Part shown: one piece after another, positions 24,506 through 38,417 of the stretch
Layout of the letters: the number at the start of each line of letters is the position of its first letter
Position numbering within the stretch: position 1 is the first letter of the stretch
Source: Clostridia bacterium
GTDB lineage: Bacteria; Bacillota; Clostridia; Oscillospirales; Acutalibacteraceae
Direction: 5' to 3'
Length of the DNA stretch: 52,859 bases
NCBI GenBank assembly: GCA_017449935.1
Contig: JAFSYP010000004.1
Coordinates: 1 to 52,859 of the forward strand
The notes under the pieces: model-generated
The model's input: only the letters and a program-made list of their open reading frames with translations
Databases searched by the model: none
Told to the model about the DNA's origin: nothing
Position numbers and translations under genes: made by a program

Positions 24506-25303
24506 ATGAAAAACGGAAGCGTCATGATCGGTCAGACGGATATGGATTATGCGGCGTTTGGCGGCGGCAAGAAGAATCTGGTCGTATTGCCGGGTTTGTC
24601 AGACGGACTTGCAACCGTGAAAGGGAAGGCGCTTTTGCTGGCGCCTGCCTATCGGCGGTTCTTTGACGCCTTTCGCGTGTATATGTTCAGCCGAAAAAAC
24701 GAAATGCCGGAAGGGTACACGATCCGGCAAATGGCGGAGGATCAGGCTGCGGCGTTAAAGGCGCTGGGGATAGACAAGGCGTCTGTACTCGGCGTGTCGC
24801 AGGGCGGCATGATCGCGCAGTATCTTGCCGCCGATCACCCGGAAATGATCGACAAACTGGTTCTGGCGGTCACGGCGAGCTATACGAATGAAGTCGTGAA
24901 GCGCACGGTGGAGTCATGGATCGAGATGGCAAAAGCGGGCGATCACGTATCCCTGATGACGGATACCGCGGAGAAAATGTATTCAAAGGCGTATCTTGAG
25001 AAAAACCGAAGGCTGTTCCCGATCGCAGCAAAGCTTACAAAGCCGGAAAGCTACGAGCGCTTTTTCCGGAACGCATACGCGATCCTCGGCTTCGATGCGC
25101 GCGAAGTCCTGCCCGGGGTACACTGTCCGACGTTCATTATTGCCGGAGCCGATGACAATACGGTCGGAAAGTATGCGGCGGACGAATTACACAAACTGAT
25201 CCCGCACAGTCAGTTGTTCACGTATGAGGGGCTCGGCCACGGGGCGTTTGAGGAAGCCCGGGATTTCTACGACAAAGTATACGAATTCTGCGCGGCGGAA
25301 TAG
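24506..25303 (+). CDS. alpha/beta-hydrolase fold protein
   Basis: 265 residues. The nucleophile elbow GVSQGG holds Ser98; GADDNTVG gives the acid region, and GLGHGAFEEARDF the catalytic His near the C-terminus. No signal peptide, so a cytoplasmic esterase or hydrolase of unknown substrate. ATG follows a GGGGAGACGGAA stretch. The pyridoxamine-oxidase-like gene lies 76 bases downstream with a ribosome site of its own. Confidence 0.88.
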   Translation: MKNGSVMIGQTDMDYAAFGGGKKNLVVLPGLSDGLATVKGKALLLAPAYRRFFDAFRVYMFSRKNEMPEGYTIRQMAEDQAAALKALGIDKASVLGVSQGGMIAQYLAADHPEMIDKLVLAVTASYTNEVVKRTVESWIEMAKAGDHVSLMTDTAEKMYSKAYLEKNRRLFPIAAKLTKPESYERFFRNAYAILGFDAREVLPGVHCPTFIIAGADDNTVGKYAADELHKLIPHSQLFTYEGLGHGAFEEARDFYDKVYEFCAAE

Positions 25304-25379
25304 ACGCCTCGGTAAATAACACAGGACAGGATCTCCCGAATGTGTTTTTAACGACGTAAATATAGGAGGATGCAATCAA

Positions 25380-25781
25380 ATGTCAAATGTTGAAAAAGTG
25401 AACGCCTTTCTGGATAAGGCACAGGTGTTTTATTTCCTGACCACGGACGGCGATCAACCGAAAGGCAGACCGTTTGGATTTCACATGTTGTCGGACGGCA
25501 GGCTGTATTTCGGCTGCGGTACGTTCAAGAACGTATTTCGCCAGTTGTCCGAGAACCCGAAGGTTGAAGTGCTGGCGCTCGACGGCGATACGTTTTTGCG
25601 TTATGACGGCACCGCCAGGATCGTCAAAGACGACGCACTGCTCCAAAAGGTGCGTGGCGCTATGCCGCAGATCATGGATCTGTATGACAAAAACGGTTGG
25701 GAAATGGGACTGTTTTATCTGGAAAACGCGCATGCCGAGATCCGCGGATTGTTCGACGTCAAAGAACAGTTTGACCTGTAA
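25380..25781 (+). CDS. pyridoxamine 5'-phosphate oxidase-like FMN-binding protein
   Basis: 133 residues, a single split-barrel domain: VFYFLTTDGDQPKGRPFGFHMLSDGRLYFGCGTFKNVFRQLSENPKVEVLAL is the family core. It lacks the C-terminal segment of true PdxH, so it is one of the many small FMN- or F420-type proteins of unproven activity. ATG follows AGGAGGATGCAATCAA. Its position beside a MocR/PdxR-like regulator is suggestive of B6 chemistry but does not prove it. Confidence 0.87.
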   Translation: MSNVEKVNAFLDKAQVFYFLTTDGDQPKGRPFGFHMLSDGRLYFGCGTFKNVFRQLSENPKVEVLALDGDTFLRYDGTARIVKDDALLQKVRGAMPQIMDLYDKNGWEMGLFYLENAHAEIRGLFDVKEQFDL

Positions 25782-25810
25782 ACCATACAAATAACAGATT
25801 ATCTGAACAG

Positions 25811-25867
25811 ACAAGAGCAACCGATCCTATACGCATAATGTGCAGATTGGATCGGCTGCTCTTTTCA
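25811..25867. terminator. hairpin terminator between convergent genes
   Basis: AAGAGCAACCGATCC pairs with GGATCGGCTGCTCTT across a long loop, then TTTTC. It lies between the FMN-binding gene and the MocR-type gene that end toward each other. Confidence 0.7.
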
Positions 25868-25906
25868 TAATGTTTTTGGTTCATCACGGATCTGCGCACT
25901 AACCCG

Positions 25907-26998
25907 TTATTGGTTTGCGTTCTCCCGGCGCATTTTGCGGCGCACGCGGTTGATGTGTCGCTCGAAATCGCCGTTGACGATCAGCTCGGTCAGCACGGCC
26001 TGCATAAACGTCGGCACGGTGCAGGCATAGAAGCCCAGACGCGCTTCAAATTCGGGCACAAGGTGCCGCGGCAGCACCAGATACCCCGCGCGGATGGACG
26101 GCGAAACGGTTTTGGAAAACGTGTTCAGATACAGGACGTTGTCGCGGTCGGTGTGCGCGAAGAGCGTTTCGACCGGCTTTTGCGAAACGGAGAACTCCGA
26201 TTCAAAATCGTCCTCGATCAGATACCGTCCCGGCCGGCTCGCCCAGCGCAGATACTCGTGCCGCTTGGAAGCGCCGGCTGTGACGCCGCTGGGAAAGCTG
26301 CGGTACGGCGTGATGTGCAGTACGTCGGCGTCGGACGAAGCCAGCGCGGCGCTGTCGATCCCGTCGTGCCCGAGCGGGAGCATCTGTGTGCGCACGTCGC
26401 ACGCCGCATAAACGCGGCGGATCTGCTTGTAGGACGGCGATTCCAGCGCCCAGACCAGCTCGCGCCCCAGAAGCTCCACGATCCGTCCGTAGAGATACTC
26501 CGAACCGGAGCCGATCACGATCTGCTGCGGCTGTACGCGTATGCCGCGGCTGCGGGCCAGGTATTGGCCGATCGCCTCCCGAAGCTCCGGCAGTCCCGCG
26601 CCGGGTGAGCGCGCAAGGATCGCGTCGCCCCAGTCGCTTATCACGCGGCGCATGGTCCGCGTCAGCACGGATACCGGAAATTCCGGCGCGTCGGATACGC
26701 CGTGCACCGGATACGGGCGCGGCGCGCTCTGCTGCGGCGCGGCGGCAAACGGATCGCCCGGCTGAAACAGCACGTAATATCCGCTGCGCTCACGCGCGGC
26801 GGCATAGCCCTCGTCGCACAGCAGCGCGTAGGCGTGCTCTGCCGTCACCAGACTCACGCCCGTCTCCTCCGCGATCAGCCGCTTGGACGGGAGCTTCCCG
26901 CCGTAGGCGTACACCCCGCGGATGATGTCGTCGCGCAGGCAGCGATAGAGCTGCACATAGGCCGGCTGCGCGTGATTTTTTACCACTTCATAATTCAT
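25907..26998 (-). CDS. MocR/PdxR-like GntR-aminotransferase regulator, short C-terminus
   Basis: 363 residues: a GntR winged helix (QPAYVQLYRCLRDDIIRGVYAYGGKLPSKR...VTAEHAYALLCDEGY) joined to a fold-type I aminotransferase domain with IEDDFESEFS and the PLP lysine at about 296 in NTFSKTVSPSIRAGYLVLP. Relatives run to about 450-480 residues; this one stops at RRKMRRENANQ, losing most of the small C-terminal domain. It is divergent from an ECF S component, as PdxR-type regulators often are from vitamin B6 genes. No clear ribosome site at the only available ATG. Confidence 0.85.
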   Translation of the reverse strand: MNYEVVKNHAQPAYVQLYRCLRDDIIRGVYAYGGKLPSKRLIAEETGVSLVTAEHAYALLCDEGYAAARERSGYYVLFQPGDPFAAAPQQSAPRPYPVHGVSDAPEFPVSVLTRTMRRVISDWGDAILARSPGAGLPELREAIGQYLARSRGIRVQPQQIVIGSGSEYLYGRIVELLGRELVWALESPSYKQIRRVYAACDVRTQMLPLGHDGIDSAALASSDADVLHITPYRSFPSGVTAGASKRHEYLRWASRPGRYLIEDDFESEFSVSQKPVETLFAHTDRDNVLYLNTFSKTVSPSIRAGYLVLPRHLVPEFEARLGFYACTVPTFMQAVLTELIVNGDFERHINRVRRKMRRENANQ

Positions 26999-27029
26999 CT
27001 GGTCTTATAAAATACTCCTTTTCTGACTA

Positions 27030-27058
27030 TTTCAATAAATCCAGATACAGTATATACT
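27030..27058 (+). promoter_or_regulatory. promoter of the ECF S-component gene
   Basis: TTTCAA, 17 bases, TATACT in the divergent space with the MocR gene; the regulator would be expected to bind here. Confidence 0.5.
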
Positions 27059-27090
27059 AAACCAAAAATAATTGCAAGGGGTGAACCGGA

Positions 27091-27618
27091 ATGCAATTGA
27101 AACAAAAACACTCCCTGGTCTGGCTGACGACGACGGCGCTGTTCACGGCGATGACCGTCGTGATGAGCAGCTTCAGCATCCCCGTCCCCGGCGGGCACCT
27201 GTATCTGTGCGACGCCGTGATCTGTACGGCGGCGATCCTGCTCGATCCGCTGGCGGCGTTTGTGGTCGGCGGCGTCGGCTCGTTCCTCGGCGACCTGCTT
27301 TTCTATCCTCTGCCGATGTTCGTCTCTCTCGTCAGCCACGGCGTGCAGGCGGTCGTGATCTCGCTGTGCGCGCACTACATACTCAAAAAGCATCCCATGC
27401 TCGCAGCCGGGATCGGCGTGACGCTCGGCGGCATCCTCATGGTGATCGGCTACTCTCTCGGCCGGGCGTTCGTATACGCCACGCCTGAGACTGCCCTCGT
27501 CAAACTGCCGTATGAGATATTGCAGGCGTTTGTCGGCGCGGCGGCGGCGATGCTGCTGTGCGGCAAAGGCGGCCTGCGGGAGCTGTACCAAAAGATCCAG
27601 AAGCGGATGCTTTCCTGA
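27091..27618 (+). CDS. ECF-transporter S component, probably for vitamin B6
   Basis: 175 residues and about five to six membrane helices, with the S-component pattern: a basic start, ALFTAMTVVMSSFSIPVPGGHLYLCDAVICTAAILLDPLAAFVVGGVGSFLGDLL, and a Lys/Gly-rich end. The N-terminal Ala-x-x-x-Ala-type helix contacts the EcfT subunit. The energising EcfA/T genes are not here, as is usual for group II transporters. Divergence from a MocR/PdxR-like gene suggests a PdxU-type pyridoxine transporter; that substrate call is inference. ATG follows AGGGGTGAACCGGA. Confidence 0.83.
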   Translation: MQLKQKHSLVWLTTTALFTAMTVVMSSFSIPVPGGHLYLCDAVICTAAILLDPLAAFVVGGVGSFLGDLLFYPLPMFVSLVSHGVQAVVISLCAHYILKKHPMLAAGIGVTLGGILMVIGYSLGRAFVYATPETALVKLPYEILQAFVGAAAAMLLCGKGGLRELYQKIQKRMLS

Positions 27619-27624
27619 CGGCGC

Positions 27625-27945
27625 GCATCGGCCGGCCGCCCGCAATTATTCATGGCGTTTCACGACACCGCAGCGGACGCTCAATGTGCATCCCTACAAA
27701 AAATCGTTATATACCAACAATCTGCGACGTTCGTGCCCGTAGGGACGGCCATTGGCCGTCCGCAAAAACACATGGCATTTCACAGCGATGCGGCGGACGC
27801 GAAACGAACCGACAACGCTTTTGTGAGAATGGGGCGGGCATGACCGCCCGTCGCCCCCTTGTACGCTGCCGTTTCCGGCGTTGTCATCGCCGCGCTTCGC
27901 TCGCGATGACGCCGGAAGAACAGAAGCCCCGCAGCTTTCCGTGAT
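27625..27945. repeat. gene-free repeat mosaic, second locus
   Basis: No credible gene. The palindrome at 27875-27915 (CCGGCGTTGTCATCGC ... GCGATGACGCCGG) is related to the 55-base repeats at 12.5 and 12.8 kb. CGTTCGTGCCCGTAGGGACGG at about 27728-27748 matches the segment near 12615-12640. GGGCGGGCATGACCGCCCGTCG at about 27833-27853 is the inverted form of the palindrome near 12825. Confidence 0.7.
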
Positions 27946-27958
27946 GATCCTTTTGTTT

Positions 27959-28627
27959 TTAGGAAAAGCTCTGCATATCCGCGGTCAGGAACTCACGGCG
28001 TCGGATGCGGACAAGGCCGTCCGTGCCGATCGCCTTTTGCAGCGCATCCGTCAGCAGCGCGGGATTGAGCGGCTCGCCGCCTGCCTGCAGCACCGCGTCC
28101 AGCAGCACGCATTGGCCCTCGGTCCGGAACGCCGCCGACTGCACCTTGTCGCAGATGCGCACCTGCTTGACGACCTTGCGCTTGCCCTGCTTGCCGGTCT
28201 TTTCCGCGGTCAGCTCGCCGCGCAGCAGCAGCGCGCGCGCTTTCTCGCAGAACGCCTGCGCCGCGGCGGCGGTGGGCAGCTCGATGCCGATGCTGTACCG
28301 CGCGAACGCGATCTGCGCCGGCTTCGTCACGGCGTCGTGCACGCGCACGACGGTTATGCCCTCCGGCAGCACGTCGTTCATGCGCCGCAGGATCTGCGCG
28401 TCGGTCATGTCGTCCTCGATGCGGATATCCAGCGGTTCTCCGTCGCTTTCCTGTCCGAGCGAGAGCGGCGTGAGGAAATTGAGATACGGGTGCGGGTTGA
28501 AGCCCTCCGTATACCACAGGGCAAGTCCGGCGCGGCGCACGGCGCGCGTAAAGCAGCGGTTCATATCCAGGTGGGAGATGTACTTTGCCCGGCCTTCTTT
28601 TTTGATCCAGAGTCTAACAGCGCGCAT
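27959..28627 (-). CDS. TIGR03936-type radical-SAM-linked protein (DUF2344)
   Basis: 222 residues, a DUF2344/TIGR03936 protein: WIKKEGRAKYISHLDMNRCFTRAVRRAGLALWYTEGFNPHPYLNFLTPLSLG is the family core. These always accompany the TIGR03960 radical SAM protein, with which it overlaps by 14 bases here. They are thought to modify tRNA or ribosomal targets, but the reaction has not been established. In other Clostridia the pair sits by ribonuclease G and ribosomal protein L21 genes; those are not seen here. Confidence 0.9.
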   Translation of the reverse strand: MRAVRLWIKKEGRAKYISHLDMNRCFTRAVRRAGLALWYTEGFNPHPYLNFLTPLSLGQESDGEPLDIRIEDDMTDAQILRRMNDVLPEGITVVRVHDAVTKPAQIAFARYSIGIELPTAAAAQAFCEKARALLLRGELTAEKTGKQGKRKVVKQVRICDKVQSAAFRTEGQCVLLDAVLQAGGEPLNPALLTDALQKAIGTDGLVRIRRREFLTADMQSFS

Positions 28628-30458
28628 CGCATTTCCCTCCGTTCAGTTTGTCCGCGCCGCACCCGCCGCAGCGTATGCGGCAATGCGGCGTCGTCCGGCT
28701 TTCGGCCGCGCGCTCGTTCTCGCGCTGCAGATACGTCTTGGACACGCCGTAGTCGAGATGGTCCCACGGCAGCACCTCGTCGAAGCTGCGGCGGCGGTTG
28801 GCGTAGAACGCCATGGAGACGCCCGCTTCGTCAAAGGCCTCCCGCCACAGGTCGAAGCGGAACTGATCGTCCCAGCCGTCGAACCGGCAGCCCTTGCGCC
28901 ACGCGCTTTCCAGCACGTCGGCGAGCCTGCGGTCGCCGCGCGCGAAGACGGCTTCGAGAAAGCTCGTGTCCGCATGGTGACAGCTCAGACTGACCTTGCG
29001 CGTATGGATGCTCTCGCGCAGCAGCGCCTGCTTGCGCAGGACGGTCTCTCCGTCGTCCTGTCCCTCCCACTGGAAAGGCGTGAAGGGCTTCGGGACGAAG
29101 GTGGAGGCGCTGACGGACACCGTGACCGATTTGCCCTTGGGCTTGTCGGGGTTGGCGTAATACGCGTCCACGACCTTCTGGGCGAGCGCAGCGATGCCCT
29201 GCACGTCCTCGTCCGTTTCGGTCGGCAGACCGAGCATGAAGTAGAGCTTGACCGCGGTCCAGCCGCCGGCAAACGCCTGCGACGCCGTTTGCAGCACTTC
29301 TTCCTCGGTCACGTTTTTATTGATGGCGTCGCGCAGACGCTGCGTGCCGGCTTCGGGCGCGAAGGTCAGCGAGCTGCGCCGCACGCCCGCGAGCTTTTCC
29401 ATCAGCTCCTTCGGGAAATTGTCGGCGCGCAGGCTCGGCAGCGCGATGTTGATCTTGGCGTCGTCCGTCCACGAGATCAGCTTGCGGATCAGCGGCTCCA
29501 TCTGCGTGTAGTCGCTCGAGGACAGCGAGCACAGCGAGATCTCGTCATAGCCTGTGCTTTCGCAGACGGCTCTGCACTGCGCGTCGATGACGTCGGCGCT
29601 CTTTTCGCGGATCGGGCGGTAGATGAAGCCCGCCTGGCAGAACCGGCAGCCGCGGATGCAGCCGCGGAAGATCTCCGTCGTGGTGCGGTCGTGGACCACC
29701 TCGATCGACGGGACGACAAAATCGCTCGGGCTGAACATCGTATCCAGATCGGACACGATGCGTTTTCGGACGGTCTTCGGCGCGCCGTCTTTGGGCGTGA
29801 CCGCCTGCACGGTGCCGTCTTCATTGTACGATACGTCGTACAGCGACGGCACATAGACGCCCTCGATCTGCGCCGCTGCGCGCAGGAACGTCTGCTTGTC
29901 CGAGCCTTTTTTCTTGTGCTCGATCAGCAGATCGATCAGCTCGTTCGTCACTTCCTCGCCCTCACCGAGCATACACAGATCGACGAACGCGTGCACCGGC
30001 TCGGCGTTGCAGACGCAGGGACCGCCGGCGGCGACGATTGGCAGAAGCTCCGTGCGGTCCGTCGCGCGCACCGGCAGCCCCGCAAGATCGAGCATATTGA
30101 GCATATTCGAGTAGGACAGTTCATACTGCAGCGTGAAGCCGATCAGGTCGAAATCGCGGATCGGATCGCCGCTTTCGAGCGCGTACAGCGGTACGCCGTA
30201 TTTACGCATCTGTTCTTCCATATCGGTCCACGGCGCGAACACCCGTTCACACCACGCGTCCGCGCGCGCGTTGACCAGACTGTACAGGATCTTCAGCCCC
30301 AGATGCGACATGCCGATCTCGTAGGTGTCCGGGAAGCAGAAGGCATAGCGCAGATCGACGGCGTTTTTGTCCTTGACGACGCTGTTCAGCTCGCCGCCGG
30401 TATAACGGCCGGGCTTCTGCACGGCGTTCAGGATGCGTTCCTTTGTTTTATCCAGCAT
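28614..30458 (-). CDS. TIGR03960-family radical SAM protein
   Basis: 614 residues. The N-terminal B12-binding-like region (FCFPDTYEIGMSHLGLKILYSLVN) leads to a radical SAM domain with the FeS motif FRGCIRGCRFCQAGF (Cys267, Cys271, Cys274; CX3CX2C) and the SAM-binding segment SLSSSDYTQMEPLI. The C-terminus carries the TIGR03960 tail with Cys-rich RIRCGGCGAD. Its partner DUF2344 gene overlaps its end. ATG follows GGAAGGAATGGAATT. Promoter at 30491-30519. Confidence 0.92.
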   Translation of the reverse strand: MLDKTKERILNAVQKPGRYTGGELNSVVKDKNAVDLRYAFCFPDTYEIGMSHLGLKILYSLVNARADAWCERVFAPWTDMEEQMRKYGVPLYALESGDPIRDFDLIGFTLQYELSYSNMLNMLDLAGLPVRATDRTELLPIVAAGGPCVCNAEPVHAFVDLCMLGEGEEVTNELIDLLIEHKKKGSDKQTFLRAAAQIEGVYVPSLYDVSYNEDGTVQAVTPKDGAPKTVRKRIVSDLDTMFSPSDFVVPSIEVVHDRTTTEIFRGCIRGCRFCQAGFIYRPIREKSADVIDAQCRAVCESTGYDEISLCSLSSSDYTQMEPLIRKLISWTDDAKINIALPSLRADNFPKELMEKLAGVRRSSLTFAPEAGTQRLRDAINKNVTEEEVLQTASQAFAGGWTAVKLYFMLGLPTETDEDVQGIAALAQKVVDAYYANPDKPKGKSVTVSVSASTFVPKPFTPFQWEGQDDGETVLRKQALLRESIHTRKVSLSCHHADTSFLEAVFARGDRRLADVLESAWRKGCRFDGWDDQFRFDLWREAFDEAGVSMAFYANRRRSFDEVLPWDHLDYGVSKTYLQRENERAAESRTTPHCRIRCGGCGADKLNGGKCDARC

Positions 30459-30490
30459 AATTCCATTCCTTCCGGGAAGCGTTATCTGTT

Positions 30491-30519
30491 ATTATAACAC
30501 ACTTTCGGGTTTGATGCAA
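30491..30519 (-). promoter_or_regulatory. promoter of the radical SAM pair
   Basis: Minus strand TTGCAT, 17 bases, TATAAT, back to back with the promoter of the sigma-LRR gene. Confidence 0.7.
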
Positions 30520-30523
30520 ATCC

Positions 30524-30552
30524 TTGACTTTCGTCGGGAAATGCTATATACT
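30524..30552 (+). promoter_or_regulatory. promoter of the sigma-LRR fusion gene
   Basis: TTGACT, 17 bases, TATACT, about 42 bases before ATG 30594. Confidence 0.7.
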
Positions 30553-30593
30553 ATAACCTGTATATGTATAAGTGTTTCCTTTGGAGGGTAAAT

Positions 30594-32771
30594 ATGAACC
30601 AACGCGGTATTTGGCAGCTTCTCCTGATGGCGCGTGAAGGCGACCGCCACGCCATTGACGAGCTGTTTTATTCCTCTTTTCGTCCTGCGTTTCTGATCCT
30701 GTCGTCCGTCACGGGGGACAGGAAGGTTTCGCTGGATCTGTTGGCTGAAGGGTACGTGCAGACATTTCAGAATCTGGATACGCTGGAGACCGGCAGGGAT
30801 TTTGCGCTGGCGCTGAACCGTTTCACGCTCGGCCGCGCTGCGTCGCTGCCGCCTGAAAAGGACCTCTCGCTTCTGCCGGACGGCTGTGAATCCGCGGCCG
30901 AGGCGTTTCGCGAGGCGCCGCCGATGCTGCACGATTTCGACACGCTGCCGGCGATGAATCTGTCGTCGAAGGCGGACGGTATCCTGTGCGCGCTGCAGAA
31001 GCTGCCGCTTGCGCAGCAGATCTGCGCATATCTGTTTTATTACGTCGAGGCCGATCCGGAGACGATCGCCGACATACTGAAAACGACGCCGGACAAAGTC
31101 TGCGGCGCGCTGCAGCAGACGCGCGACGCCGTTCTGCCGCAGATCGAAGAACTGCTGGGCAATACCGCGGCGTTCCGCGGTACGGACGCCGAATCTGCAA
31201 TCCTCTGGGCACTGCGCCGCACGACGAAGTTCGTCCCTGCGCCCGGCGAGATCGAGACGTTCTACCAGATGCTGATCGAGAAGCTGGTCGCGGCCGAGGT
31301 GATGGAAGCGCCGATCTCGGAGGAAGAGGAGCCGAAGCCGGACGATGATATCCCGCTGCGCGACATCGCACCGCCGAAGGAGCATACCGTGCTGCGCACG
31401 ATCTTTTCGCTGCGCACGCTGATCATCGTTCTGGCGCTGCTGGTGGTGATCGGTCTGTTTGTCGGCATGAAGCAGCTGCACACATACAACGCCCGGCGCA
31501 GTCGTTTGGAAACGCACGCGGAGCGTACGACGCTCTCGCTCACGGCGACCATGTTCCCCTCGGAGCGCTATATCTTCTCCACCGAATACGAAGCGCCGAC
31601 GGAGGCGCCGACCGAGACGACGACGGAGGCGTCGACCACGGCGTCGCCGACCGAGCCGGTGACTGAGACTGCCCCCTCCACGACCGAAAAACCGACGCCG
31701 ACCTTCACCGAGCCGACCGTGCCGGTCATCACGACGACCAAGCCGAACACGGAGTTTTCCTATACCGAAAGCGCCAATCTTTTGACAATCACGGGCTATT
31801 CCGGGACTAAGACGGCCATCACCATCCCCGACAAGATCGACGGCAAGACCGTGGTCGCCATCGGAGAAAACGCGTTTTTCAACGCGTCGATCACGTCGGT
31901 CAAATTCCCGACGACGATCCGCACCATCGGCAAGAACGCGTTCCGCAGCTGTACGAGTATGCAGAGCGTCTCGCTGCCCTCGGGCCTGACGACGATCGAC
32001 TCCGACGCGTTCCGCGGCTGTACGGGGCTCAAGACCGTGTCCCTGCCGTCGTCGCTCAAGCAGATCGGCTCGCAGGCGTTTTCCGGCTGTTCCGCGCTTG
32101 CCGGCGTTACGCTGCCGACGTCGCTGACGACGATCGGCGACTGGGCGTTCGCGTACTGCACGAATCTGTCCAGCATCGCGATCCCCGCGTCGGTCACGAC
32201 GGTGGGCAACTCCGTCTTCTATGAATGCAAATCGCTCGGCCGCTGTGCGGTGGAAAACAGCTCCCGCCTGAAGGCGCTCGGCGACGCGATGTTCTTCGAC
32301 TGCACGTCGCTCAAATCCTTTACGATCCCGTCGCAGGTCAAGGTCGTGCCGAACAACTGCTTCGCGGGCTGCCGTTCCATGACGTCGATCGCGCTCTCCA
32401 CGTCGATCACCACGATCGGCCAGAACGCGTTCTCCGACTGTATCTCGCTCAAGGATTTCTCGTTCAGCAGAAATCTGCAGAAGATCGATAGCGGCGCGTT
32501 CAGCGGCTGCTCATCGCTCAAGAGCATGACGATCCCGTCCGGGACGACGACGATCGGCGACTCTGCGTTCAGCGACTGCACCGGCCTGCGGTCCGTGACG
32601 ATCCCGGCGTCCGTCACACAGATCGGCGTCAAGGCGTTCTCGGGCTGCGATGATTTGGTGATCTCCTGTCCGTCCGGCTCCGCCGCGGAGAAGTACGCGA
32701 TCGCCAATCATATCGAGATCGAGGGCAGGAGCAGCAGTACCACGTACAGCGACGACAAAAACAACGTATAA
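30594..32771 (+). CDS. sigma-70-like/transmembrane/BspA-LRR fusion protein
   Basis: 725 residues. Residues about 9-82 resemble ECF sigma region 2 (LLLMAREGDRHAIDELFYSSFRPAF) and about 136-187 resemble region 4 (LPLAQQICAYLFYY...ADILKTTPDKVCGALQQTRDAV). A membrane helix (273-292) follows, then a Thr/Pro/Glu-rich spacer (about 330-385) and at least a dozen BspA-type LRR_5 repeats to about 705, with motifs such as IGENAFFN and AFSGCSSLKSMTIPSG. The sigma-like part would be cytoplasmic and the repeats outside. I know of no described protein of this order. ATG follows TTGGAGGGTAAAT. Confidence 0.85.
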   Translation: MNQRGIWQLLLMAREGDRHAIDELFYSSFRPAFLILSSVTGDRKVSLDLLAEGYVQTFQNLDTLETGRDFALALNRFTLGRAASLPPEKDLSLLPDGCESAAEAFREAPPMLHDFDTLPAMNLSSKADGILCALQKLPLAQQICAYLFYYVEADPETIADILKTTPDKVCGALQQTRDAVLPQIEELLGNTAAFRGTDAESAILWALRRTTKFVPAPGEIETFYQMLIEKLVAAEVMEAPISEEEEPKPDDDIPLRDIAPPKEHTVLRTIFSLRTLIIVLALLVVIGLFVGMKQLHTYNARRSRLETHAERTTLSLTATMFPSERYIFSTEYEAPTEAPTETTTEASTTASPTEPVTETAPSTTEKPTPTFTEPTVPVITTTKPNTEFSYTESANLLTITGYSGTKTAITIPDKIDGKTVVAIGENAFFNASITSVKFPTTIRTIGKNAFRSCTSMQSVSLPSGLTTIDSDAFRGCTGLKTVSLPSSLKQIGSQAFSGCSALAGVTLPTSLTTIGDWAFAYCTNLSSIAIPASVTTVGNSVFYECKSLGRCAVENSSRLKALGDAMFFDCTSLKSFTIPSQVKVVPNNCFAGCRSMTSIALSTSITTIGQNAFSDCISLKDFSFSRNLQKIDSGAFSGCSSLKSMTIPSGTTTIGDSAFSDCTGLRSVTIPASVTQIGVKAFSGCDDLVISCPSGSAAEKYAIANHIEIEGRSSSTTYSDDKNNV

Positions 32772-33298
32772 TCGCGTCTGCCCCGAATAAATAACAATAT
32801 CCCGACCGCCGCCAACGGAACGACCGTACAGGCGGCGGCCTTTTTGCTTATTTTTTGCGCTTCGTCCGGCAGAAAACGGCGGCAGAGCAGCGCATACAGG
32901 ATCGCGCCGCCGTCCAGCGGTCGGATCGGCGTCAGATTGAAGGCAGCGAGCAGGAGATTGATCTGCACGCCGCGGCGCGCGCGGGCGGAACCGCCGCGCC
33001 AAAGCAGCAGAAGCAGCGCCAGCAGCACGTTGGCCGCCGGCCCCGCCGCCGCGCAGAGCAGCTCTTTCGCGTAGGAAAGGCGCGTCGTTTCCGCGCGTTC
33101 GATCCGCATCCCGTATACGCCGAAGCAGAGCTTCTGCGGCGTGTCGCGCAGACAGACGAGCGCGAGCAGATGGCCGCACTCATGAAAAACGGCGGCGCAG
33201 ATGCTTTGCACCGCGTCGCCGCTTCGATCGTAATAGAGCCAGAGTGTGATGTAAACTGCCGCAGCCAGAGAAAACTGCCAGCGCATGGGCTTACGCAT
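32708..33298 (-). CDS. SpoIVFB-like site-2 (M50) metalloprotease
   Basis: 196 residues and about five membrane segments. The zinc motif HECGH (residues 39-43) and the second motif NLTPIRPLDGGAILY (the Asp ligand in LDGG) identify an M50 intramembrane protease. In spore formers this type (SpoIVFB) cleaves pro-sigma-K and lies directly downstream of SpoIVFA, as the M23 gene lies directly upstream here. ATG 33298 overlaps the M23 gene by eight bases. Its 3' end overlaps the convergent LRR gene by 64 bases, tail to tail. Role in sporulation inferred. Confidence 0.85.
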   Translation of the reverse strand: MRKPMRWQFSLAAAVYITLWLYYDRSGDAVQSICAAVFHECGHLLALVCLRDTPQKLCFGVYGMRIERAETTRLSYAKELLCAAAGPAANVLLALLLLLWRGGSARARRGVQINLLLAAFNLTPIRPLDGGAILYALLCRRFLPDEAQKISKKAAACTVVPLAAVGILLFIRGRRDYTLFLSSLYVVLLLLPSISI

Positions 33299-34082
33299 AT
33301 TCCAATCCCTCCAGCACGTACGCCGGATCGCATCGGATGCCGTCCACACGCACCTCGAAGTGCAGATGCGGCCCTGTGGACATCCCGGTCGAACCGACCA
33401 GGCCGATCGTATCGCCCGCGCCGACCGTATCGCCGGTTTCCGCGTCGATCCGCGAGAGGTGGCAGTACAGCGTCTGCAGGCTGTCGCTGTGTTCGATCAG
33501 AATATAGTTGCCGCGTCCGGAGGTATAGCCGGCCTCGATCACCTTGCCGCCGTATGCCGCGGCGACGCCTGTGCCCTCGGCGGCGGCCAGATCGATCCCC
33601 GTATGAAAGCTGCGGTTGCCGGTGATGGGATGGATGCGGTACCCGAAGCCGGACGTGACCGTTCCCTGCACGGGCATGACGGCCCGCTGCGAAACCGTGA
33701 CCGCCGCGAACGAGGAATCCTGCAGCGCGTCCAGCACGCGGATATCCTCGCCGCCGGAGGACGTCACCGTCTCCACCGGCGCGCGCGCGTCGACACGCGC
33801 CACGGCCTCGGCCGACTGCGGTTCGGTCTGCGTCTGCGGCTCCAGCACGTCCTGCGCGGCGCGCTTTGCCGCCGTCCATACGCCGTCCGCGCAGTAATCC
33901 TGCGCCATCCACGACTGATACTGCGCGCGCAGGCGCGCGTATGCCGCGCTGCCGGAACGGCTCAGCCCGAACACACTCAGCACCAGTATCGCGCAGACGA
34001 CGCACTGGACCAGCGGCGCCGTCAGACGGCTTTGTTTTTTCTTCTCCTGCTTTGGCGGGTTGAGCCATTCGTTCTGCTGCAT
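33291..34082 (-). CDS. SpoIVFA-like M23 (LytM) membrane protein
   Basis: 263 residues: a cytoplasmic basic start, one membrane helix (about 22-41) and a C-terminal M23 peptidase domain (SGFGYRIHPITGNRSFHTGIDLAA ... HLHFEV). Both metal-binding motifs, HxxxD and HxH, are intact, so it may be an active endopeptidase, unlike typical SpoIVFA in which they are degenerate. Position before the M50 protease supports the SpoIVFA/SpoIVFB pairing. ATG follows GAAAGGAAGGGACGCGA. Confidence 0.82.
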   Translation of the reverse strand: MQQNEWLNPPKQEKKKQSRLTAPLVQCVVCAILVLSVFGLSRSGSAAYARLRAQYQSWMAQDYCADGVWTAAKRAAQDVLEPQTQTEPQSAEAVARVDARAPVETVTSSGGEDIRVLDALQDSSFAAVTVSQRAVMPVQGTVTSGFGYRIHPITGNRSFHTGIDLAAAEGTGVAAAYGGKVIEAGYTSGRGNYILIEHSDSLQTLYCHLSRIDAETGDTVGAGDTIGLVGSTGMSTGPHLHFEVRVDGIRCDPAYVLEGLEYA

Positions 34083-34157
34083 TCGCGTCCCTTCCTTTCC
34101 GCATCGAAAACGCAGGCGTTTGTCCTATTTCTATGCAGCGGGAAGGGCGGTTATGCA

Positions 34158-35735
34158 TCAGGCAAAGAGTTTTTTATACCACGGCAGGCTTTGCGTGACC
34201 GGCTCCGCGGTCGGTTCGGCTGCCGCGTGCAGCGACGGCGTCATGTAAATGAACAGCAGACTCACGTTTGTGCCGTCCGCCGCGTCGGTGAACAGTCCGT
34301 ACGATTTACCGAACGCGACGTACTTCTGCAGGTTTGGCAGCAGCGAATCGGCGTCCTCGCTGAGCGTCGAGAGCAGCGTCTGCGCCTTCTGCGAATCCGA
34401 GAACGACTGCAGCGCGGGCAGCATATTGTCGTTTGCCAGCTCGCCGAGCAGATTGACCAGATCGCTGTTTTTGTCCAGCGTTTCCTTCAGCGCGGACAGC
34501 GTTTCAAGCGTTTCGGGCATTTTGTCCAGCGCCGCCTTGACCTTCGGGTCCTTCAGATCCTCCTGCAGCTCGCTGAGCATCGGCGTGAGCGCCTGGACGG
34601 ATCCGAGCAGCTCCGGCATCCCGGACAGCAGGCTCTTGATCAGCGGATTGTTGAGCTTGTTCAGCATATCGACCGTGTCGGGGTCCTGCAGCGCCGTCAG
34701 GAGAGTGGAGATGTTTTCAAGGTTTTCGGCGGTGAGATGCTTGCTCAGCACATCCAGCAGCGCCTCGTTCTGATTATACACCTTGATCGCCTGCGTGAGC
34801 ATGTCGGAGATCTCCGCGATCCGGTCGCCGCTGAGCACCTCCAGCAGACGGTCGACGTCGAGCTTGCCGATCGCCTTGAGCAGATTTTCAACCTGGCGGA
34901 AAAATTCCGCCGCTTCCTCGTCGCTGCCGGGGATGATCATCGTCAGATCGGTCGAGCACAGCGGCACGACGGCGAGATACAGATTGTCCAGTGAAAAGTC
35001 GGTCACGTCTGCCGTCACGGTGAAGCTGTCGCTGATTTTCAGACTGCCGAGCTTCGCGCCGTTTTTGAGATGCAGGCTTTCCGCCATGCCGGGAAGTCCC
35101 GCGCCGACGACGACCTCCTTCGCGCCGTCGCCGATGGACAGACCGTTCTGCACCTGCACGCCGGAGAACACGCCCTCCGGCAGAACCAACAGACCGCCCG
35201 CGAGGACGGGCAGATACACGCCGTCCTGCTTGCAGACGTTCTGCATCTTCACGCAGATCTCCGCCTTGCCGCTCTTGCCCGCGATCTTTTCAGGCGGGAG
35301 CTTTTTGCCGTCCAGCTTGTATTCAATGGTGAATTCGACGGGCAGCTTCTTTGTGCTGGTGCCTTTGTAGTACAGGTCGGTCGTCGGCATGTTCCACGTC
35401 AGCGTATCGCCGTTTTGCACGGGCACGACGGAGCCCTTAATGTCCGCGATGTCGTCCAGATCGCTCTTGTCGGGCACGGCGACCTCGCCCCGGTCGGTAT
35501 GCAGCCAGTCTGTCACATGGACGGCCTGCACCTTGCCGGTATTGTCGAGATTGGCGTACACCGTCTCCGATTTGCGCACCGAAGCGGGCGCGGCGTCGTA
35601 GGAGATCTGCTCGACCGCGCTCGCGGCGTCCGCCGCCGCGGCGACGTCCGGCTCGGTGGTCTTGCCGCAGGACGCGGCGCCGAACAGCAGCGTGAGCGCA
35701 AGCGCAAAGGCGGCGGCACGTTTGTATTTACGCAT
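34158..35735 (-). CDS. putative lipoprotein partner of the MMPL transporter
   Basis: 525 residues. The N-terminal signal ends at a lipobox-like AASC (Cys23), so probably a lipoprotein. The first half is beta-rich; the second half (about 255-480) is a long run of helices with Leu heptads (for example QVENLLKAIGKLDVDRLLEVL), consistent with a coiled-coil periplasmic-style arm on the outside. Last gene of the TetR-MMPL operon, overlapping the transporter gene by eight bases. It probably works as the extracytoplasmic adaptor of that exporter; not a recognised named family. Confidence 0.75.
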   Translation of the reverse strand: MRKYKRAAAFALALTLLFGAASCGKTTEPDVAAAADAASAVEQISYDAAPASVRKSETVYANLDNTGKVQAVHVTDWLHTDRGEVAVPDKSDLDDIADIKGSVVPVQNGDTLTWNMPTTDLYYKGTSTKKLPVEFTIEYKLDGKKLPPEKIAGKSGKAEICVKMQNVCKQDGVYLPVLAGGLLVLPEGVFSGVQVQNGLSIGDGAKEVVVGAGLPGMAESLHLKNGAKLGSLKISDSFTVTADVTDFSLDNLYLAVVPLCSTDLTMIIPGSDEEAAEFFRQVENLLKAIGKLDVDRLLEVLSGDRIAEISDMLTQAIKVYNQNEALLDVLSKHLTAENLENISTLLTALQDPDTVDMLNKLNNPLIKSLLSGMPELLGSVQALTPMLSELQEDLKDPKVKAALDKMPETLETLSALKETLDKNSDLVNLLGELANDNMLPALQSFSDSQKAQTLLSTLSEDADSLLPNLQKYVAFGKSYGLFTDAADGTNVSLLFIYMTPSLHAAAEPTAEPVTQSLPWYKKLFA

Positions 35736-37818
35736 GAGAATCCACTCCTTTTGTCCAATGGAACGTCGTTTTACGGATCAGCCCTTCGCACAGATACAGC
35801 ACGGCGGGCAGGATGAGCATGATGACCAGCGCGCTGATCACGGAGCCTCTGGCGAGCATGGCGCAGATGCCCTTGACCATGGCGATGTCGCAGATCAGAT
35901 AGACGCCGAAGGTGGCGCTGAAGAAGACAAGCGCGCTCTGGAAGATGGATCGGCACGAAGCCGACGCCGCCTCGATGACGGCGGTTTTTTTGTCCTTACC
36001 TGCGCGAAGCTCCTCACGGAAGCGTGTCGTCATGAGGATGGCGTAGTCCACCGTGGCGCCCAGCTGCACGCAGGACACGACGGTCGGCGCGATAAACGAA
36101 ACGCTCGTGCCGGTGAAGAAGGGGACGGCTTCGTTGACGAAGATCGAAAACTCGATCATGGCGACCAGCAGGACAGGGATCGTAAACGACCGGAACACGA
36201 GGCCGATGAGCACCATGATCGCGGCGATGGAGATGAAATTCGTGACCTTGAAGTCGCGGTCTGTCACCTCGATGAGGTCCTTGGCCATGACGCCCTCGCC
36301 GGTCGTCAGCGCGGTGGGATCGTACTTTTTGACGATGGCGTTCATCGCGTCCACCTGCGCGTTGCACGCGTCGCCGGCCGTTTCGTACGCGGAGTTGACC
36401 ATCATCATCTGCATGCCCGCCTTTTCGCACACGGCGCGGATCTGATCGGGCAGGATGTTCTCATGGATGGCCGGCCCGACGTAGGCGTTGAGCGCGATCA
36501 CGTCTTCGATCCCGTCGAGCGCTTTGATCTCGGCGAGCATCCGGGAAATATCGCCCGCCGGCAGGTCGGCGTCGATCAGGATGAAGTGCGTCGTCGCCAT
36601 ATTGAAGTCGCTTTTCAGCTTCTTGAGCGCGGAAACGGAATTGAGATCCTGCGGCAGAGAGTCCACGACGTTGTAGTATTTTTCGGGCATCACGCTGAAA
36701 ATGCCCATCGGCACGATCAGCGCGAGCAGCAGGATCGCCAGAATGCGGCGATGCTTGACCGAGAAGCGGCTCATGCCGCCGAAGTGCGGCACAAGATTGC
36801 GGTGGCCGAGGCGGTAAATGGGCTTGAAGAACAGCAGTATCATGCTTGGCAGCACCGTGATGACCGTCACGATGCCCAGCAGGACGCCCTTCGCCATCAC
36901 CAGACCGATGTCCAGCCCCAGCGTGAAGGTCATGAAGCACAGCGCCAAAAAGCCGAAGACCGTCGTCAGCGAGCTTCCGATCACGGACGTGAAGGTGCCG
37001 CGGATCGCCTCGCCCATCGCGCGGACGTTGTCGTCCGGATAATGCAGCCGCTCCTCGTTGAAGCGGTCGATCAGGAACACGGAATAGTCCATCGTGACGC
37101 CCAGCTGCAAAATGGCGGCGATGCTCTGCGTGATGAACGAGATCTCGCCGAAAAAGAGGTTGGTGCCCATGTTGTACACCACGGCGAAGCCGAGACTCAG
37201 CAGCACCACGATCGGCAGTGCCCAGGAATTCATCGTGAAGCTCAGAACGATCAGCGCGAGCACAATGGCGACGGTGATATAGATCGGCGCCTGCGAATCG
37301 GTCAGGTCGCGCGTGTCGACAAGCAGCGTCGCAAGTCCCGACAGGAAGCACTGCTTGGTCATGATCGTGCGGATCTGGCGGATGCATTCCATCGTTTCAT
37401 CCGACGCGCTGCCGTTTTTGTACAGGATCATCATCATCGTCGACTTGCCGTCGGCCGAATAGAAGATGTTGCGCAGCACGTCCGGCAGCATCTCCTTCGG
37501 GATGGTGACGTCGGCGATCGAATCGACCCACAGCACCTGCGAGACGCCGTCGATCTGCTCGATCTGCGACTTGATGCGCAGCACGTCGGCGGAATCCATG
37601 CCCTCGATCATGAGCGTGGAGCTGGACGCTTCCTGAAACACCTCGTCGAGGACGATCTCTCCCTGTACCGATTCCAGATCCTTCGGCAAATACGTCATGA
37701 TGTCATAGTTGACCGGCGTCGCGAGGAAGGCAAGCAGCGACGGTACGAGCAGCGCGGTCGCGACGAGGAGGATCAGCCGCGGATGGCGGGCGATCCAATA
37801 GGACATTTTTTCGATCAA
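35728..37818 (-). CDS. MMPL/RND-family exporter
   Basis: 696 residues and about twelve membrane segments in two repeated halves, the RND/MMPL layout: an N-terminal helix (YWIARHPRLILLVATALLVPSLLAF), a large outer loop, and matching DYSVFLIDRFNEE and DYAILMTTRFREE segments with the charged residues of proton-driven exporters. Such proteins export lipids or hydrophobic compounds. It begins with an ATGA overlap with the TetR gene and is followed by the lipoprotein. The substrate is unknown; drug or lipid export is only a possibility. Confidence 0.88.
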   Translation of the reverse strand: MIEKMSYWIARHPRLILLVATALLVPSLLAFLATPVNYDIMTYLPKDLESVQGEIVLDEVFQEASSSTLMIEGMDSADVLRIKSQIEQIDGVSQVLWVDSIADVTIPKEMLPDVLRNIFYSADGKSTMMMILYKNGSASDETMECIRQIRTIMTKQCFLSGLATLLVDTRDLTDSQAPIYITVAIVLALIVLSFTMNSWALPIVVLLSLGFAVVYNMGTNLFFGEISFITQSIAAILQLGVTMDYSVFLIDRFNEERLHYPDDNVRAMGEAIRGTFTSVIGSSLTTVFGFLALCFMTFTLGLDIGLVMAKGVLLGIVTVITVLPSMILLFFKPIYRLGHRNLVPHFGGMSRFSVKHRRILAILLLALIVPMGIFSVMPEKYYNVVDSLPQDLNSVSALKKLKSDFNMATTHFILIDADLPAGDISRMLAEIKALDGIEDVIALNAYVGPAIHENILPDQIRAVCEKAGMQMMMVNSAYETAGDACNAQVDAMNAIVKKYDPTALTTGEGVMAKDLIEVTDRDFKVTNFISIAAIMVLIGLVFRSFTIPVLLVAMIEFSIFVNEAVPFFTGTSVSFIAPTVVSCVQLGATVDYAILMTTRFREELRAGKDKKTAVIEAASASCRSIFQSALVFFSATFGVYLICDIAMVKGICAMLARGSVISALVIMLILPAVLYLCEGLIRKTTFHWTKGVDSHA

Positions 37819-38417
37819 GCCGGTTCACCTCCCAGCAGCTTCTTCAAAAGTGTATGCAGCACAGGCAGCAGCTCGTCAACGGTGCAGGGACGCTCGCTGA
37901 GAATGGCGTCGCAGCAGACGGAGCCGACCATATCCGCAAGGATATACAGCTTCGTGCGCGCCTGCGCTTCGCCGCAGTCCGGCGTCGTCAGCAGTCCGGT
38001 CAGGTATTCCGCCGCGCTGTTGAGGCCCGGATACGCTTCGAGCGCGGCGGGGGTAAAGCAGATCGAGAATCGTTTGTCGATCAGCGCGGTGACCTTGCGG
38101 TCCTCACACAGCCGCGCGACGATCGTGTCCGTCAGCAACAGAAACTGTTCTGTACGCGTCATGGCGCGTTCCGCGGCGCTGCGTCGCAGCTGATTGCAGC
38201 TTTCGGTAAAGATCTCGGCGGTGCGGCGGATCACGATCTGATCCAAAAGATCGTATTTGTCGCGGAAATACAAATAGAACGTGCCCTTCGCCACGCCCGC
38301 GAGCTTGACCACGTCGTCGATCGCGGTGCCCGCGACGGAACCGTCGAGGAACAGCCGCGTCGCCGCGTCGAGGATCCTGGACTGCTTGTGCTGTTTGTTT
38401 TCGGCAGCCGTCGGCAT
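37815..38417 (-). CDS. TetR-family repressor of the MMPL operon
   Basis: 200 residues: an N-terminal TetR helix-turn-helix (ILDAATRLFLDGSVAGTAIDDVVKLAGVAKGTFYLYFRDKYDLL) and a variable C-terminal ligand domain. First gene of the operon. I chose ATG 38417, nine bases after AAAGGA, over an ATG two codons upstream that is too close to it. Two palindromes, TGACTnnnnGTCA, overlap its promoter, so it very likely represses itself and the exporter, with release on binding the exported compound. Confidence 0.88.
   Translation of the reverse strand: MPTAAENKQHKQSRILDAATRLFLDGSVAGTAIDDVVKLAGVAKGTFYLYFRDKYDLLDQIVIRRTAEIFTESCNQLRRSAAERAMTRTEQFLLLTDTIVARLCEDRKVTALIDKRFSICFTPAALEAYPGLNSAAEYLTGLLTTPDCGEAQARTKLYILADMVGSVCCDAILSERPCTVDELLPVLHTLLKKLLGGEPA

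Follow-up and report, generated by a model that had tools for sequence, protein, structure and literature searches.

An ECF sigma-derived part joined through a predicted membrane helix to BspA-type leucine-rich repeats in Clostridia

We analysed a window of 52,859 nucleotides from a member of the Clostridia and found a gene whose 725-residue product carries, in one chain, an N-terminal part of ECF sigma descent, a single predicted membrane helix, a spacer rich in Pro, Thr, Ser and Glu, and LRR_5 repeats. Its branch, found in one genus, has lost several canonical sigma residues, and the first 62 residues are the most constrained of the protein. We put at about even the chance that it is a single-pass membrane sensor whose sigma-derived inner part signals by protein contact and is probably no ordinary sigma factor. 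The protein is kin to a larger set of membrane-fused ECF proteins of the same class, most of which keep the canonical residues.

Layout of the protein and ancestry of its N-terminal part

The features of the gene and its surroundings are as follows (positions in the window).

30524..30552, + strand: sigma-A-type promoter-like site, TTGACT-17-TATACT, from a scan of the window
30583..30588, + strand: ribosome-binding-site-like GGAGGG
30594..32771, + strand: whole gene, 725 amino acids plus stop (ATG at 30594, stop ending at 32771)
30594..30869, + strand: sigma region 2-like part, residues 1-92, of which residues 1-62 are the protein's most constrained
30780..30869, + strand: segment corresponding to sigma 2.3-2.4 (residues 63-92), which has lost the canonical Trp
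30984..31142, + strand: sigma region 4-like part, residues 131-183, with NCBIfam and profile matches
31095..31139, + strand: segment corresponding to the 4.2 recognition helix (residues 168-182), with most basic residues gone and the hydrophobic ones kept
31182..31217, + strand: juxtamembrane motif around ESAxxWALR, residues 197-208, aligning with APxPLxxWALK of fused ECFs
31398..31469, + strand: transmembrane helix predicted from hydropathy, residues 269-292
31494..31751, + strand: Pro/Thr/Ser/Glu-rich spacer, residues 301-386
31752..32693, + strand: LRR_5 (BspA-type) repeat domain, about residues 387-700

The gene start is supported by the GGAGGG shortly 5' of the ATG, and the orthologues share the same start position. 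Across the whole protein, a single stretch rises above the hydropathy threshold, with its peak at residues 273-291. The Pro, Thr, Ser and Glu fraction is 0.60 over the first 80 residues past the helix, and the repeat domain matches LRR_5 at E 7.1e-80 (265.6 bits against a Pfam cut-off of 27.7), with 11 repeat matches spaced 23 residues apart, or 25 in one case. An earlier sequence-only reading had described this order of sigma-like part, single helix, Pro/Thr/Glu-rich spacer and LRR_5 repeats, and the description holds. Another 28 matches to the protein occur on other contigs of its own genome, where LRR proteins are plentiful; all are to the stalk and repeat part.

The same reading had claimed a resemblance to sigma regions 2 and 4, for which it proposed a profile search. 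Taken alone, the window protein gave a weak signal. Its residues 1-189, 1-269 and 1-299 had no Pfam match at E<=1, and phmmer with residues 1-269 found nothing among PDB sequences at E<=10. NCBIfam sigma models matched residues 1-189 at 8.8e-4 (residues 127-181, region 4) and 2.2e-3 (residues 5-75, region 2), far under their cut-offs (best 19.2 bits against 198). The curated Pfam and NCBIfam cut-offs are thus not reached by this protein but are passed by fused relatives; the three tested against TIGR02937 scored 88-92 bits against a cut-off of 42.9. Searched one by one, three of the ten orthologues matched Sigma70_r4_2 at E<=1, the best at 0.0035.

With relatives included, the resemblance is clear. 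A profile of ten orthologues (window included) matched ECF sigma structures among PDB sequences over residues 8-180 (8z6g, 7.5e-7; 6in7, 8.3e-7; 1or7, 3.2e-4; 6jbq, 4.7e-4). The eight top matches (E<=0.17) are all sigma factors, and non-sigma matches (ribosomal protein S6 and others) begin at E 0.22. Profile-profile comparison of the ten orthologues with ten fused ECFs gave a probability of 99.9% and E 1.4e-31 over 208 columns, in an alignment that spans region 4 and reaches the juxtamembrane W-A-L-R/K motif. Homology to ECF sigma regions 2 and 4 is therefore found by both the profile and the profile-profile comparison, and the claimed resemblance is real at the level of sequence families, though weak in the single sequence.

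A modular set of membrane-fused ECF proteins and its divergent branch

Orthologues occur in nine of the ten other genomes of the genus (32-66% identity over residues 1-299), and the sole genome that lacks one is 59% complete. Counting the window's own genome, 10 of the 11 genomes of the genus thus carry the branch with an open frame, and one of these copies (L013) runs into a contig end. Nothing else came near it when the orthologue profile was searched against 295 genomes of the order: the window protein scored 447 bits and the next match 87. Its own genome (87% complete) holds soluble ECFs, and no second fused sigma protein was found there.

The orthologue search of the genus also gave 16 more distant matches, five in short and 11 in long frames. 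The long frames combine an ECF sigma part, a hydrophobic stretch and an outer part, with Sigma70_r4_2 in 11/11 and Sigma70_r2 in 9/11. A profile of ten of these 11 (A3) found 25 matches of at least 185 bits in at least 18 of the 295 order genomes, in frames of 359-1303 residues. This count of genomes is a lower bound since at most seven candidates were scored per genome, and two of the 18 had supplied rows of A3. Below 185 bits the next score is 162.6; most of the lower matches are soluble-sized frames and some are long. A search of 291 class genomes gave 12 matches that pass 1e-50, spread over nine genomes. Within the genus, fused members of at least 186 bits occur in 5/11 genomes, of which two supplied A3 rows and one has a frame of only 387 residues. 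Five of the ten genomes that have the window's branch carry no such fused member.

A common profile alignment was built with 39 fused proteins (11 from the genus, 16 from the order search, with one locus per genome looked at, and 12 from the class search), some of them truncated where the retrieved sequence stops, together with ten orthologues of the branch and 16 soluble ECFs, which are those with loci to hand and no random draw. The 39 leave out L074 and L075 (the same proteins as L023 and L022), seven fused order rows without a locus, the same-genus L127-L129 and L134, and lower-scoring long frames. Scanned at E<=0.001, the 39 fused proteins contain Sigma70_r4_2 in 39/39 and Sigma70_r2 in 37/39. 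Among the 25 of 31 families listed, their outer parts include LRR_5 in five, WG in three and Big_2 in two, and single cases of CAP, SH3_3, Lipocalin_4, Cu_amine_oxidN1 and others. By these predicted domains, the membrane-fused set is modular across order and class: an ECF sigma, a helix and a varied outer part.

One genome of the genus (G007) encodes two fused proteins, L128 and L134, with an ECF part, a helix, a Thr-rich stretch and LRR-like repeats (judged by eye), beside the degenerate copy; the three offer a good natural comparison. Separately, L142, L143, L144 and more frames of 877-1155 residues join an ECF sigma to a C-terminal part of roughly 700-900 residues. We considered these frames for the fused set and set them aside as a different kind, as none of three cases examined has a hydrophobic stretch over the threshold.

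The roles of the scored residues in sigma 2.2, 2.3, 2.4 and 4.2 are established; their frequencies were measured here in the common alignment. The 2.2 Gln is present in 36/39 fused, 14/16 soluble and 0/10 branch proteins, and the Asp/Glu that follows it in 34/39, 16/16 and 9/10. In the same order, the 2.3 Trp is found in 35/39, 15/16 and 0/10, the 2.4 Asn in 30/39, 12/16 and 2/10, the 4.2 Lys in 31/39, 13/16 and 1/10, the 4.2 Arg (KSR) in 37/39, 11/16 and 0/10, and the second 4.2 Arg in 33/39, 14/16 and 5/10, the window protein among the five. Scored over the seven residues, 34/39 fused proteins have 6-7 and three have 4; 12/16 soluble proteins have 6-7, and their lowest score (3) belongs to a truncated row; branch proteins have 1-3. 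The mean net charge of the 4.2 helix is +4.4 in fused, +4.6 in soluble and +0.5 in branch proteins (fused and soluble against orthologues, Mann-Whitney p 1.6e-6, for rows that are not independent). The branch thus lacks the combination of 2.2 Gln-Asp/Glu, 2.3 Trp and basic 4.2 helix that marks an ECF sigma. Because its 4.2 helix still carries the hydrophobic Val/Ile and Leu/Ile, the fold has probably survived. Missing canonical residues are no proof of lost DNA binding. Two other fused relatives, L026 (score 3) and L036 (score 2), are also without most of the canonical contact residues, and such loss within the fused set may have happened more than once.

Selective constraint was estimated by the Nei-Gojobori method on four orthologue pairs, in which dS was often above 1, making the values rough. 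Residues 1-62 have the lowest dN/dS of any segment in all four pairs (0.06-0.11), compared with 0.25-0.65 in residues 63-92, 0.25-0.70 in region 4 (three pairs, dS being saturated in the fourth) and 0.13-0.34 in the LRR part. All segment-pair values with unsaturated dS (31 of 32) are below 1. Among the ten orthologues, 14 of the first 26 positions are invariant, as are 61 of 314 columns of the LRR part. Judged from the open frames, the low dN/dS and the invariance of residues 1-26, the protein is maintained and not decaying, and the strongest conservation lies in the sigma-derived part and not in the repeats.

In the tree (64 of 65 rows; S_L029 was dropped for too few aligned columns), the branch forms one clade (100/99) and lies inside the fused set (95/95 for 16 fused proteins and the ten orthologues). 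The split between soluble and fused proteins in the same tree is weak (68/99), and in a quick tree minus three long rows the soluble proteins did not group as one. With F_L026, S_L042 and S_L043 also left out, an AU test on the reduced set did not reject a position of the branch outside the fused set (p 0.451). We take the branch and the fused set to share an origin mainly from their layout and the profile match.

Membrane topology and gene neighbourhood

In the wider fused set, mean net charge falls from +2.2 in the 20 residues before the helix to -2.3 after it, as expected for an inside-to-outside span. The corresponding values in the branch are 0.0 and +2.6, and here the charge rule does not support a sigma part on the inside. 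Just past the helix (31470-31529), all ten orthologues have 4-6 Lys/Arg per 20 residues around an invariant Tyr298, a cluster that reverses the usual charge balance. Despite this balance we favour an inner position for the sigma-derived part, because the protein has no second hydrophobic stretch able to export 270 residues and because LRR_5 repeats and spacers rich in Pro, Thr, Ser and Glu typically lie outside the cell. The direction of the chain through the membrane is thus a prediction from composition and layout.

A zinc anti-sigma domain between the sigma part and the helix was considered and rejected: its HxxxCxxC motif is absent before the helix in 49/49 proteins. Pfam found no fused anti-sigma domain in residues 1-269 of the window protein; inhibitory segments of a non-zinc kind are possible.

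TTG-box and TATA-box pairs similar to the promoter-like site of the window were seen by eye 5' of 10/10 orthologues, window included, which suggests ordinary housekeeping expression rather than autoregulation. No Rfam family reached its gathering score in 25000-38000. The gene upstream is a divergent radical SAM gene (TIGR03960) that lies beside seven copies; it is missing near the G007 copy and within the 1.2 kb examined at G001.

On the other side, adjacent M50 and M23 peptidase genes (32708-34082, - strand) are convergent with the sigma-LRR gene. The M50 neighbour was considered as a dedicated partner, and this is not supported. The gene adjoins five of nine informative orthologues, window included, and was not found beside the other four (tblastn, E<=1e-8); the tenth (G004) ends at a contig edge and is thus uninformative. 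A dedicated partnership is therefore unproven. No NCBIfam model matched the M50 protein at E<=0.001. A plausible alternative is that the two genes are a SpoIVFB/SpoIVFA-like sporulation pair, since M50 lies beside M23 and Spo0A is present in 11/11 genus genomes. A neighbour that is not conserved neither proves nor excludes release by another protease.

Candidate functions and known systems

In the mechanism we propose, BspA-type LRRs on the Pro/Thr/Ser/Glu-rich stalk would sample a ligand or the cell wall outside, and the part inside would be the one descended from an ECF sigma factor. IutY and ECF52 serve as models for the wider set, where the membrane probably retains a normal sigma until a signal frees or exposes it. 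In the one-genus branch, several promoter-contact residues are gone, so promoter reading has most likely been lost, and the inner part most likely signals through protein contact of its conserved first 62 residues (the 2.1-2.2 part). In sigma factors, the 2.1-2.2 part faces core RNA polymerase, and the 2.2 Gln is a core-binding residue; with that Gln lost in 10/10 orthologues, the inner contact may be something other than RNA polymerase. It is from the residue loss together with the constraint on residues 1-62 that the branch is probably a protein-contact sensor and not an ordinary sigma. A bolder reading, which we rate as less likely than not, is a DNA-blind sigma receptor: one genus would have made near-universal a copy that signals by protein contact through the conserved 2.1-2.2 part, for example by keeping RNA polymerase or an anti-sigma factor at the membrane or competing for one of them there. 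The class-wide modular set would then have an intact sigma inside and LRR, WG, Ig-like, CAP or other domains outside.

The sequence-only reading had instead proposed that an outside ligand could affect a tethered, possibly proteolytically released, transcription domain. Worked out as an active membrane-tethered sigma with an unusual promoter, the protein would be cut near the helix once the ligand binds, and the N-terminal fragment set free would direct RNA polymerase. Its idea of a one-protein receptor gains from the sigma ancestry, the single helix, the LRR part and the recurrence of the layout in many relatives, including those with intact sigma residues, and the M50 gene does adjoin five informative orthologues; IutY, moreover, is activated by Prc and RseP cleavage (PMC5411451). 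A working transcription domain is nevertheless doubtful. Several promoter-contact residues are missing in 10/10 orthologues, regions 2.3-2.4 and 4 are loosely constrained, M50 was not found beside 4/9, and the zinc anti-sigma motif is absent before the helix. Regions 2.3-2.4 serve promoter melting and -10 reading in canonical ECFs. We consider an active tethered sigma rather unlikely for the branch. The window protein may be a receptor of the membrane-fused ECF kind; the features tested speak against classing it as an active ECF sigma.

The loss of DNA-contact residues would also suit a surface LRR protein, an adhesin or wall-binding protein, whose sigma-like part is a leftover cytoplasmic anchor from a fusion. 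Such a protein would account for the well-kept LRR part and for the stalk-and-repeat matches elsewhere in the genome, but one would not expect the strongest constraint in a mere anchor, and residues 1-62 are firmer than the repeats; we regard this as improbable. The constraint on residues 1-62 in a part without the usual promoter residues is what a sigma mimic would show, binding an anti-sigma factor or competing for core RNA polymerase and so setting the activity of another sigma, for which soluble ECFs are at hand in the same genome. However, a scan of five neighbouring proteins in the window found no sigma-control family, the branch has lost the 2.2 Gln, and half of the genomes having the branch are without a canonical fused relative, which could thus not be its fixed partner. 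To this mimic we give a slim chance. Returning to the protein-contact sensor, the degenerate branch, if the reading is true, would show a sigma factor put to new use in signalling without DNA binding and would directly test what sigma region 2 does without promoter reading. With one-piece sigma receptors such as those of the wider set, these bacteria would pass a signal from outside on to transcription with no need of a separate anti-sigma protein, and the swapped outer domains of these receptors are a ready set for ligand finding.

Among known proteins, BspA-type LRR_5 surface proteins have the outer repeats in common with the window protein; to our knowledge, ordinary ones carry no sigma-derived part. 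RsgI sensors have the single-pass sensing layout in common with it. In the RsgI sensors of Clostridium thermocellum, the transmembrane helix is described as cut by RseP, with release of the N-terminal fragment (PMC12203970). RsgI is an anti-sigma factor, whereas the inner part of the window protein is itself descended from a sigma, and its residues 1-269 had no Pfam match at E<=1 to an RsgI-type N-terminal anti-sigma domain.

The sequence-only reading took as background that ECF sigma factors are soluble and restrained by separate anti-sigma proteins. This picture is incomplete, as membrane-fused ECFs are described (PMC8999054, PMC5826349, PMC5411451). SCO4117 of Streptomyces coelicolor (ECF52) carries an ECF sigma domain, a transmembrane region, a proline-rich extension and an outer binding domain in one protein (PMC5826349), and the window protein resembles it in having a sigma part, a membrane span, a Pro-rich extension and an outer domain in one chain. 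ECF52 has a zinc finger and a carbohydrate-binding domain and is described in that paper as exclusive to Actinobacteria (PMC5826349); the window branch differs in its LRR_5 outer domain, in lacking HxxxCxxC and several DNA-contact residues, and in its host. IutY of Pseudomonas putida (ECF243) likewise joins a cytosolic ECF sigma across the membrane to an outer part, with release by Prc and RseP (PMC5411451, PMC8999054). On the periplasmic side, IutY has an anti-sigma domain that acts together with an outer-membrane receptor, whereas the outer part of the window protein consists of LRR repeats, and any cleavage of it is putative. The review expects activation of ECF48, ECF52 and ECF53 by proteolysis and gives IutY as the one case shown (PMC8999054). 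Titles and abstract openings listed by targeted searches of open-licence PubMed Central papers named no sigma-TM-LRR protein and no membrane-fused ECF family of Clostridia, though ECF classification papers may describe one, and a search there for a pseudo-sigma gave no matching paper. Compared with the known fused ECFs, the set described here has a different host, no zinc motif and different outer domains, and the window's branch has in addition lost sigma hallmarks. Membrane-fused ECFs are thus already known, and the present proteins stand apart from them by the host, the outer domains and a branch with lost sigma hallmarks.
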